From contig JAPOHD010000029.1 of NCBI GenBank assembly GCA_026671195.1, forward strand, positions 88,342 through 152,341: 64,000 nucleotides of DNA, given 5' to 3'. This stretch comes from Draconibacterium aestuarii (GTDB lineage Bacteria > Bacteroidota > Bacteroidia > Bacteroidales > Prolixibacteraceae). The first letter of the stretch is position 1. Each line of letters opens with the position of its first letter. Both the position numbers and the translations under genes were made by a program. Below the pieces are notes generated by a model. It worked only from the letters and a program-made list of their open reading frames with translations, was not told where the DNA came from and searched no databases. Of this stretch, positions 29,719-36,129 are shown one piece after another.

Positions 29719-30297
29719 CTATTTTTTCTTTTTCTTCTTTTTTTCAACCGACCAGCCAAATTTGCCGATTTTATCGCCCATACCAAAATAATGGCCATGA
29801 CTATAAACCAGCGGATTTGCTTTTGAAAAACTAAAGGCCTCGTTTTCGTTTAAATAAGCATCGTCGACCGAAACGCCAACCACATCGGAAATAAACATGT
29901 GATGAGTGCCTAATTCCACTATCTCTTTTACCCGGCATTCGATATTCACCGGCGACTCTTCAATAATGGGTGCCTTCACATACTTTGCACGAGCCGGAGT
30001 GAGGTTCATCTCTTTCCATTTATTGAATTTACGCCCCGATCGACAGCCACACCAGTCGGTTGCTTTCGCCAGTTTTTCGGTGGTAAGATTTATTACATAT
30101 TCGCCGGTGCGTTTAATAATATCGTACGAATGTCGCCCCGGACGAACCGAGATGTAACACATTGGTGGATCACTGTTTATCGTACCAGTCCATGCAATAG
30201 TTATAATATTATATTCTTCGGGATTTTCCCCACAACTAACCATAACCGCCGGAAGCGGATAAATAATAGTTCCTGGTTTCCAATATGTTCTAGCCAT
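29719..30297 (-). CDS. Flavin reductase-like FMN-binding protein
   Basis: 192 residues from the ATG at 30297 (MARTYWKPGTIIYPLPAVMVSCG); the longer frame to 30321 adds eight residues. It has the split-barrel flavin-reductase fold: NIITIAWTGTINSDPPMCYISVRPGRHSYDII is the FMN-binding strand-loop region, and GEYVINLTTEKLAKATDWCGCRSGRKFNKW, ESPVNIECRVKEIVELGTHHMFISDVVGV follow in family order. It binds FMN and probably reduces flavins or an unknown partner. The C-terminus is a run of seven lysines encoded by an A-rich tract, unlike the rest of the protein. Confidence 0.88.
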   Translation of the reverse strand: MARTYWKPGTIIYPLPAVMVSCGENPEEYNIITIAWTGTINSDPPMCYISVRPGRHSYDIIKRTGEYVINLTTEKLAKATDWCGCRSGRKFNKWKEMNLTPARAKYVKAPIIEESPVNIECRVKEIVELGTHHMFISDVVGVSVDDAYLNENEAFSFSKANPLVYSHGHYFGMGDKIGKFGWSVEKKKKKKK

Positions 30298-30452
30298 TGA
30301 TTCTGATTTTTGATTATACATAAACAGACTTAAAGATACAAATTCTTTGATGGTCCGGAGATTGTGGTAATTCCAAAACCATTTCAGAATCTCATCTAAG
30401 GAATTGATCTTTTAAAAAACAAAAAGGAGTTTACCATCAATCAGAAACGGAA

Positions 30453-33328: not shown

Positions 33329-34339
33329 ATGAGTAGTGAGAAAACAAATCCTGAAGTATCTGTTATTCTCCCGTTTTATAATGCCGAAAATACGTTACAA
33401 GCGGCTATTAAAAGTATTCTCAATCAAAGTTTCAAAAATTTTGAATTGCTGCTGATCGACAATAATTCAAACGATAATAGTTATGAAATTGCCAGAAGAT
33501 TAGCGGCAAGCGATTCAAGAATAATACTCCTGAATGAAACAAAACAAGGTGTGGCAAACGCCATGAACTTTGGATTACAAAATGCCCGGGGCAGGTTTCT
33601 GGCACGAATGGACGCCGATGATATTTCGCTTCCAACCCGACTTGAAAAGCAACTTCAGTTTTTAAATAAAAACCCGGAAATCGATTTTGCAGGATCGGAA
33701 GTAAAGTACATTGCACACAGCAAAAACACAGCGGGATTCAGGCGATTTGTTGCCCGGGCAAATTCGTTTCACACTTCTGAAGAAATTGAACGCAAGCGTT
33801 TCATAGAAATACCAATTATAAATCCAACTCTATTTTTTCGCCGCAAGCTGTTTGAAAAATACGGTGCTTGCCTTGACGGCAATTTTCCTGAAGATTACGA
33901 AATGCAGCTGCGCTATTTGGAAGCAGGAGTTAAGATGGCAAAATTGCCGGAACCGCTTTTGGAATGGCACGACTATTCCACGCGTTTAACCCGCACCGAC
34001 AAACGCTATTCAACAAAAGCCTTTTTTAAAACCAAGGCAGCCTATTTTAAAAAATGGTCTGAAAAAAATAATCTGTTTCACCCGGTTATTTGGGTGTGGG
34101 GTGCCGGACGAAAAACACGGCAACGATCTGTTTTCCTGGAAGAACAGGGATTAAAAATTAAAGGACGAATAGATATTAAAGAGTCAAAAGACGATGCTCT
34201 CTTTTATGAAGACATTCCCGGACCGGGAAAACTATTTGTAGTTTCAATGGTAAACAACACCGGAGCCGGTGAAAATATTCGCAAGTTTTTACTGAGCAAA
34301 AATTATTCAGAAGGGGTTGATTTTATTTTGATGGGGTAA
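33329..34339 (+). CDS. Family 2 glycosyltransferase with C-terminal Rossmann-like extension
   Basis: 336 residues. The GT-A domain (about 8-240) begins VSVILPFYNAENTLQAAIKSI, has LLIDNNSNDNS, and the metal-binding DxD region RMDADDISLPTRLEKQ. The last 100 residues are not part of the usual domain and contain HPVIWVWGAGRKTRQRSVFLEEQGLKIKGRIDI, a pattern like a nucleotide-binding Rossmann turn, then PGPGKLFVVSMVNNTGAGENI. It has no membrane segment. The acceptor is unknown, but a cell-surface glycan is likely. It is probably co-transcribed with gldA. Confidence 0.85.
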   Translation: MSSEKTNPEVSVILPFYNAENTLQAAIKSILNQSFKNFELLLIDNNSNDNSYEIARRLAASDSRIILLNETKQGVANAMNFGLQNARGRFLARMDADDISLPTRLEKQLQFLNKNPEIDFAGSEVKYIAHSKNTAGFRRFVARANSFHTSEEIERKRFIEIPIINPTLFFRRKLFEKYGACLDGNFPEDYEMQLRYLEAGVKMAKLPEPLLEWHDYSTRLTRTDKRYSTKAFFKTKAAYFKKWSEKNNLFHPVIWVWGAGRKTRQRSVFLEEQGLKIKGRIDIKESKDDALFYEDIPGPGKLFVVSMVNNTGAGENIRKFLLSKNYSEGVDFILMG

Positions 34340-34410
34340 AACAAAATCGTACGCCTAAACTGATTTAAAACAATTCTAAATAAGTTCTTTTTTATTCAAA
34401 ATAAACCTAT

Positions 34411-34418
34411 TACATTTG
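34411..34418 (+). promoter_or_regulatory. metK promoter, -7 box
   Basis: TACATTTG fits TAnnTTTG exactly. The upstream region near 34385-34392 is T-rich (TTCTTTTTTATT) in place of a clear TTTG. The predicted start near 34422-34425 puts the riboswitch at the extreme 5' end of the mRNA. Confidence 0.55.
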
Positions 34419-34421
34419 CAC

Positions 34422-34509
34422 CCACTACGTGGATAGATTTGAGATTGATTGCAACCACTTTAAAAAAATGCTAAAGCAGTCGCTGTTTTGCAGTTTCTCA
34501 AACTTTTTT
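34422..34509 (+). promoter_or_regulatory. SAM-II-like riboswitch in the metK leader
   Basis: The stretch GTGG-n2-A-GATTTG ... TTGCAACCACTTTAAA ... TGCTAAAGCAG follows the SAM-II layout in order. P1 is GTGG (34429-34432) with CCAC (34455-34458). The pseudoknot is offered by GATTG (34443-34447) with CAGTC (34477-34481) and GCA (34451-34453) with TGC (34469-34471), leaving the conserved GCTAAA run for ligand contacts. SAM-II binds S-adenosylmethionine, the product of MetK, so feedback control is expected. Two competing pairings are visible: CCAC (34422-34425) with the same GTGG, and TTTGAGA (34438-34444) with TCTCAAA (34496-34502), which is followed by six T at 34504-34509. The match is by eye, not by covariance search. 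Confidence 0.7.
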
Positions 34510-34644
34510 CAGGTAGTTAATTTTTATAGGATACTTATTTTGTAACGTTCGTATTTTCGATTTATATCGATAATCGGCTGCAAAAACAAGTAATTCCTGC
34601 TAATTATTAACTTATACCGAATTTCGGTTTAAATAAACATTGTT

Positions 34645-35898
34645 ATGAATTATTTATTTACAAGTGAATCGGTTTCGGAAGGCCATCCAGACAAGGTTTC
34701 CGACCAAATTTCAGATGCATTGCTGGACCAGTTTCTGGCATTTGATCCCAACTCGAAAGTAGCAATTGAAACCCTGGTAACCACCGGACAAGTTGTTGTT
34801 GCAGGAGAAGTAAAATCGAGCGCGTATGTTGACGTGCAGGAAGTAACACGAAGTGTAATTAATAAAATTGGGTATACAAAAGCTGCCTATCGTTTCGATG
34901 GCGATTCGTGTGGAGTGTTGACAGCCATTCACGAACAAAGTGACGATATTAACCGTGGTGTTGACAAGGAAGATAAAAATGAACAGGGTGCGGGCGATCA
35001 GGGAATGATGTTTGGTTACGCGTGCAAAGACACCGATAACTACATGCCGCTTTCGCTGGAGCTTTCACACTTTATTTTGTTGGAACTGGCAGCCATTCGT
35101 CGTGAAGGAAAAGAAATGACCTATTTGCGTCCTGACTCAAAATCGCAGGTAACCATTGAATATACTGAAGCAAACGAACCGGTAAAGGTACACACGATAG
35201 TAGTATCAACACAACACGACGAGTTTGATGACGACGAGCCTATGCTTGCAAAAATCAAAGAAGATGTGATCAACATTCTTATTCCGCGTGTAAAAGCATT
35301 GTTACCCGAACGAGTTCAGGCTTTGTTTGGCGACGATATTATTTATCACGTTAATCCAACCGGTAAATTTGTAATTGGTGGACCACACGGAGATACCGGC
35401 CTAACCGGACGTAAAATTATTGTAGATACTTATGGTGGCCGCGGTGCACACGGTGGTGGTGCCTTTTCGGGTAAAGATCCATCGAAAGTGGACCGCTCGG
35501 CAGCTTATGCTTCGCGCCACATTGCCAAAAACCTGGTTGCAGCAGGTATTGCCGACGAAATTTTGGTACAGTTGGCTTATGCAATTGGTGTTGCCGAACC
35601 GGTGGGGGTTTTTGTAAATACCTATGGCCGTAAAAATGTTAAAATTTCGGATGGTGAAATTGCTGAAAAAGTAAAAACTATTTTCGATTTGCGCCCGGCA
35701 GCTATTGAAGAACGTTTAAAGTTGCGTAATCCTATTTATGTTGATTCGGCAGCATACGGACACATGGGAAGAACTCCTGTAACCATTACCAAAACCTTTG
35801 AATCGCCATACAATGGAAAGGTTACCAAAGAACTGGAATTGTTTACCTGGGAAAAACTCGACTTTGTAAGTGAAGTTAAAAAAGCTTTCGGAATTTAA
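34645..35898 (+). CDS. metK: S-adenosylmethionine synthase
   Basis: 417 residues. MetK makes SAM from methionine and ATP in the cytoplasm. All three domains are present: the start [25 protein letters not shown] with the ATP-binding [17 protein letters not shown], and the [15 protein letters not shown]-type loop after [14 protein letters not shown]. It is preceded by a 5' leader of about 220 bases with a SAM-II-like riboswitch and followed by a strong terminator, so it is monocistronic. Confidence 0.97.

Positions 35899-36056: not shown

Positions 36057-36129
<73 letters not shown>

Follow-up and report, generated by a model that had tools for sequence, protein, structure and literature searches.

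A SAM-II long-loop aptamer upstream of metK in Draconibacterium aestuarii and a putative strand exchange that may reach the start codon across its order

In the 64,000-nucleotide stretch of Draconibacterium aestuarii DNA considered here (the window), an earlier note had placed a SAM-II-like riboswitch right at the beginning of the metK mRNA, about 160 bases from the start codon. We consider it probable that this element is a SAM-II long-loop riboswitch which, from the 5' end of its mRNA, switches the translation of metK off by an exchange of pairing partners.

With the Rfam covariance models, a check proposed in the earlier note, we found that the element matches RF01726, the SAM-II long-loop model, above its cut-off (E 4e-10 for the window) and that this match is the single one in the whole genome. 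With RF00521, the alphaproteobacterial SAM-II model, the window reaches 22.7 bits against a cut-off of 36 and is therefore not a member of that family. All the elements quoted beforehand lie where they had been reported in the sequence, and the aptamer does end 160 bases before metK. We identify it from its sequence as a SAM-II long-loop riboswitch aptamer, which would bind SAM. Its location at the very 5' end of the mRNA also holds, the start of transcription being deduced from TACATTTG, whose TAnnTTTG motif we take to be the -7 promoter box of Bacteroidota and which is separated from the RF01726 match by four bases. Among the 234 leaders retained for the comparisons below, 212 carry TAnnTTTG within 50 nt upstream of the ATTTG motif of the aptamer, at a median distance of 17 nt. 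The features of this part of the window are as follows.

34411 to 34418, forward strand: TACATTTG, presumed Bacteroidota-type -7 promoter box (TAnnTTTG), from the sequence
34423 to 34484, forward strand: SAM-II long-loop aptamer (RF01726), 64.5 bits for a cut-off of 44
34429 to 34432, forward strand: P1 5' strand GTGG, pairing with CCAC
34443 to 34447, forward strand: pseudoknot 5' strand GATTG, partner CAGTC at 34477 to 34481
34455 to 34458, forward strand: P1 3' strand CCAC, pairing with GTGG
34469 to 34479, forward strand: TGCTAAAGCAG, from the sequence
34477 to 34481, forward strand: pseudoknot 3' strand CAGTC, partner GATTG
34645 to 35898, forward strand: open reading frame of metK, S-adenosylmethionine synthetase, 417 amino acids

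The open reading frame at 34645 to 35898 is presumably metK, a name based on the MetK-type N-terminus of its product, which has 70-88% identity to the 80 loci that a genome scan retained. Downstream of it lies a tRNA gene (36057 to 36129, Rfam RF00005); elsewhere in the window, a 200-amino-acid open reading frame on the minus strand (29719 to 30321) ends in a C-terminal run of seven lysines.

Matches to RF01726 are found in 127 of the 140 genomes of the family. The order and the phylum were searched as samples and, among the matches listed, at least 197 of 295 order genomes (195 above cut-off) and at least 45 of 296 phylum genomes (41 above cut-off) have one. Eighty order matches without a locus from the search were fetched, and three family genomes with matches (G160, G161 and G162) were left out of the fetched loci. 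The first 52 fetched loci include 51 with a metK start downstream of the aptamer and, under a stricter rule, 235 of 250 fetched loci parse as metK leaders, so that the upstream position relative to a SAM or methionine gene that is expected of the SAM-II long-loop class is found among these relatives. The 15 unparsed loci are L007, L052, L053, L105, L149, L150, L154, L158, L168, L169, L192, L216, L225, L236 and L250; removal of L245, which has a short leader, gave the 234 leaders. L052 is a weak RF01726 match (32.7 bits, genome G038) and its fetched stretch holds no metK start. Two genomes, G072 (L152, L162) and G221 (L192, L198), have two matches each, on different contigs.

Compensatory change in P1 is apparent in 328 parsed metK leaders, in which the search pattern demanded GG and CC and left the other two pairs free, and among which some genomes occur twice: 312 carry one of four matched types (GTGG/CCAC 250, GAGG/CCTC 52, GCGG/CCGC 5 and ATGG/CCAT 5) and 16 carry other combinations. 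In L349 to L359, which have a GAGG/CCTC P1, inserts lie between CCTC and GCTAAA, some of them hairpin-like, and stretch several RF01726 matches to about 100 nt. For the pseudoknot, GATTG/CAGTC in the window corresponds to GATTG/CAATC in the leader of its sister, L017. The order-wide specificity of this pairing is modest by helix score (z 2.5-2.8; three draws, 85 groups), and duplex energies give no order-wide signal (z 0 to -0.5).

The earlier note had also described two pairings that compete with the aptamer. One of them, the hairpin CCAC-TAC-GTGG, is present in the window, and among the 35 leaders of the genus its four standard pairs (G-U allowed) are all retained in 27 and three of them in 8, counts that ignore kinship among these leaders. 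The competition itself stands up in the predicted folds; what had to be revised is its extent, as the helix is larger than described and takes in the run of six T. The elements concerned are the following.

34438 to 34444, forward strand: TTTGAGA, from the sequence
34496 to 34502, forward strand: TCTCAAA, from the sequence
34504 to 34509, forward strand: run of six T, from the sequence
34424 to 34454, forward strand: 5' arm of the predicted anti-aptamer helix (5' end, P1 5' strand and loop 1), from the minimum-energy leader fold
34488 to 34517, forward strand: 3' arm of the predicted anti-aptamer helix, which holds the T run at 34504 to 34509, from the minimum-energy leader fold

When 91 nt are folded, the alternative pairing is the predicted minimum-energy structure (-18.2 kcal/mol); this fold yields the inner part of the helix, the outermost pairs appearing only in the full-leader fold. 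Taken alone it is unremarkable, since 14 of 200 shuffles fold equally well, and 288 of 1000 shuffled strands pair with the aptamer arm as well as the downstream strand of the window does, although the whole leader folds better than its shuffles (z -3.34). The significance of the alternative pairing in the window thus comes from comparison with relatives and not from the window alone; with that comparison, we regard the anti-aptamer helix in the window as likely.

This comparison was made with a swap test, in which the own downstream strand and the strands of other genomes were paired with each aptamer arm, taking one leader per family or genus (85 groups). Own strands pair at -14.86 kcal/mol against -12.67 for swapped ones (z -9.3; 0 of 5000 permutations). 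With the strands reversed, z is -0.3 and -0.5; with the arm complemented, the control is partly positive (z -2.6). Loop 1 contributes most of the signal (z -5.8, and -3.4 in the reversed control), with z -1.9 for the P1 5' strand alone and -1.0 for GATTTG alone. The effect is broad and not strong case by case: the own arm is the best in 4 of 85 groups and within the top tenth in 25, and 33 of 85 representatives have at most five in 100 shuffled strands that pair as well. Restricted to 21 genera of the own family, three draws give z from -2.4 to -3.6 and reversed controls from -0.6 to -1.9; within the genus alone, whose six distinct arms give the test no power, nothing is significant (z -0.7).

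We repeated the analysis on a second set, built from named records and phylum genomes. From its 88 loci we removed the 9 whose leader resembled one of the first set by 75% or more, and the rest was thinned to 46 leaders, 16 of them GTGG. The anti-aptamer signal is again found (z -5.7, 0 of 5000; reversed strand -2.5), the removal of near-copies having changed it from -6.1, and the 31 non-GTGG leaders of the uncleaned set give z -3.3 (reversed -1.2). A matched-pair analysis of 231 of the 234 leaders gave 115 non-overlapping pairs of near relatives, in which the own strand beats the swapped one 81 times, loses 30 times and ties four times, for 55:57 in the mirrored control. The helix predicted for each leader involves the GG of P1 in 226 of the 234 cases, a count given without a chance level, and CCTC occurs in the anti-P1 box of 16 of 53 GAGG leaders against 30 of 250 GTGG leaders, which is no more than suggestive.

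The strand that pairs with the aptamer arm also fits the start of its own gene. For each leader we defined a box of 15 nt at the point of pairing with the GG of P1, picked solely by pairing with the aptamer arm and chosen outside the last 20-25 nt before the start codon; the eight leaders without a paired P1-GG had no box. Excluding boxes too near the start left 195 of 226 leaders, in 71 groups, in one run and 61 groups in another. Boxes pair better with their own start region (-24 to +9) than with those of other leaders, with z from -6.3 to -8.6 (median -7.1) in ten draws of the 61 groups and from -5.2 to -7.2 in five draws of the 71. The controls give z -2.5 for the reversed start region, -2.1 for the reversed box, +0.85 for the complemented region and +1.45 for the untranslated stretch -48 to -25 (22 groups). 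Mirrored controls are thus partly positive here as in the swap tests, and composition or relatedness accounts for some of the signal. An artefact that we considered, namely that the box fits the start because the start resembles the aptamer arm, was rejected, as the reverse complement of the arm gives z +0.9.

When the box is divided, its portion beyond P1 shows a stronger signal (z -5.5) than its anti-P1 portion (z -2.9). Start pairing reaches z -3.8 to -4.9 with 20 genera of the own family, z -4.0 to -4.9 with other families (54) and z -5.7 to -6.0 with leaders whose start is neither AUGGGA nor AUGGGU (44), and it is weaker in the 33 that have one of these two starts (z -1.4 to -2.2). In the second set, 25 boxes give z -3.7 (2 of 5000; reversed -1.0), against -4.6 before near-copies were removed. 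Among 99 near-relative pairs the own combination is better in 55, worse in 23 and tied in 21, and the mirrored controls stand at 44:28 and 46:31. As examples, CCCAUAAUU pairs with AAUUAUGGG across the AUG in L239, CCAUUUUGUU with GGCAAAAUGG in L090 and CACAAAUUU with AAAUUUGUG in L144. The association can also be read from CCC in the box and GGG at the start: with one leader per genus of the own family, the first draw gave eight leaders with both, ten with neither, two with GGG only and none with CCC only (median p 0.0002 over 50 draws). Over all groups the median p is 0.0014 (200 draws, range 1.6e-6 to 0.033), and CCC elsewhere in the leader is uninformative about a GGG start (p 0.33-0.85, five draws). 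When the aptamer is masked in predicted folding, accessibility of the start is lowered by 0.033, against -0.007 for swapped combinations (p 0.011, 65 leaders), a predicted change that is small and in the right direction. A strand common to the aptamer arm and the start region, which defines a translational sequestor, is in this way found for the order, by covariation.

In terms of sequence, we could demonstrate the aptamer, its conservation before metK and an order-wide covariation of both alternative pairings. The mechanism that they suggest is as follows. Without SAM, the P1 5' strand and loop 1 would be held by a strand that usually lies about 25-45 nt downstream of GCTAAA, and this anti-aptamer helix would keep the start codon accessible. 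Once SAM is bound, the bases of the P1 5' strand and of loop 1 would return to the aptamer pseudoknot, releasing the downstream strand, which in the relatives could then pair with the start-codon region. As one strand cannot hold the aptamer arm and the start together, and SAM needs the arm, the start would be masked in the SAM-bound state; a start that is open without SAM and masked with it gives the sign expected for metK. Translational OFF action is the most likely outcome; that SAM binds, in which order the strands fold and how translation responds are points that we infer.

A different use of the same helix deserves to be weighed, although we think it unlikely: the anti-aptamer helix would be real, and control, in this species at least, would be exerted by SAM-dependent Rho termination, by mRNA stability or by another structure such as an extra hairpin instead of start masking. 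The window and its sister speak for it, as neither has a start-codon partner. The box/start duplex is worth -1.9 kcal/mol in the window, where 180 of 201 leaders' start regions fit equally well or better, and -2.2 kcal/mol in L017 (185 of 201), for a median own value of -6.9 kcal/mol over the 201 leaders; in the window, no strand common to arm and start was found with the box chosen by anti-P1 pairing. It is also favoured by 11 non-GTGG boxes (mostly GAGG), for which start pairing is unsupported (z -0.45), but the specificity of start-region pairing across the order argues against it. Because the window and its sister lack the start partner, control at the start codon is proposed for the order as a whole. 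These two leaders have in common a further predicted domain:

34514 to 34614, forward strand: extra hairpin domain, from predicted folds and a two-sequence alignment with L017

The base of this hairpin overlaps the end of the anti-aptamer 3' arm, and a comparable domain is predicted in L017. At this site 32 of the 35 genus leaders are much shorter, with at most 143 nt from TTGCAACC to ATG, for 196 nt in the window, 193 in L017 and 203 in L028. In the strand exchange that we favour, the first half of the mechanism probably holds in the window, and the last step there may run through the extra hairpin.

The earlier note had suggested control by premature termination, which the leader does not bear out. 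In such transcription attenuation, the TTTGAGA/TCTCAAA hairpin and the T run would form an intrinsic terminator competing with the aptamer, a reading that we consider very unlikely. In its favour, the stem is followed by C and six T, 44 of 226 leaders carry a U5 run in the 13 nt that follow the box (somewhat enriched, as 10% of all 13-nt windows have one), and PMC2258182 and PMC6061858 consider the SAM-II riboswitches of proteobacteria to be mostly transcriptional. But the hairpin with the T run would fold in place of the aptamer, which means that SAM would turn metK on, contrary to ordinary feedback; moreover, the T run sits within a helix in the predicted full-leader fold and is replaced by CATTTTC in L017. 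A terminator scan of 34330 to 34700 found none. Of the 85 representatives, 3 have a terminator-like site, where ten sets of shuffles gave 0 to 3 and 1.6 on average. The leader was for this reason not placed among transcription-attenuating riboswitches, whose intrinsic terminator was not found here.

It is most improbable that the aptamer is real but the alternative pairings reflect chance or relatedness, with the pseudoknot alone hindering ribosomes: the window pairing is indeed not special against shuffles and several mirrored controls are mildly positive, but the swap tests, the second set and the near-relative contrasts all exceed their mirrored controls, and in the window the aptamer ends 160 nt before the start codon.

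The aptamer class is already known, SAM-II long loops having been described in Bacteroidetes and marine samples (PMC2864571), and the window resembles this RF01726 class in aptamer sequence, fold and phylum. The Rfam model covers a 60-position aptamer only, so that the exchange strand and the start pairing lie outside it. With the alphaproteobacterial systems of RF00521 the window has in common the P1/pseudoknot plan, TTGCA and GCTAAA; according to PMC6061858, PMC2258182 and PMC9373788, those systems mostly use terminators and rarely place a Shine-Dalgarno sequence in the pseudoknot. The metA riboswitch of S. meliloti (PMC9373788) likewise has a SAM-II aptamer controlling a distant start codon, but it masks a Shine-Dalgarno sequence inside the riboswitch, whereas a released strand would act on the start region in the mechanism proposed here. 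Mutually exclusive pairing with an OFF sign is also a property of the sequestor/anti-sequestor translational riboswitches presented in PMC2258182. The expression platform of Bacteroidota SAM-II is undescribed in the literature searched, in which, judging largely by titles and the beginnings of abstracts, we recognised no account of it; PMC12121620 names Bacteroides data sets, and a word search in it gave no hit for SAM-II.

For the order as a whole, we lean slightly towards a three-way platform shared by its metK SAM-II riboswitches, in which one strand would alternate between the aptamer (SAM-free) and the start codon (SAM-bound) and the neighbourhood of the start, even codon 2 of MetK (AUGGGA), would coevolve with it; in the lineage of the window, an extra hairpin would have come to perform the last step. 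Shine-Dalgarno sequences are little used in Bacteroidota. The exchange model, if true, would explain how a translational riboswitch can exert control with no Shine-Dalgarno sequence to hide, and it would predict, in a form that can be tested, which strands pair in many of the order's genomes.
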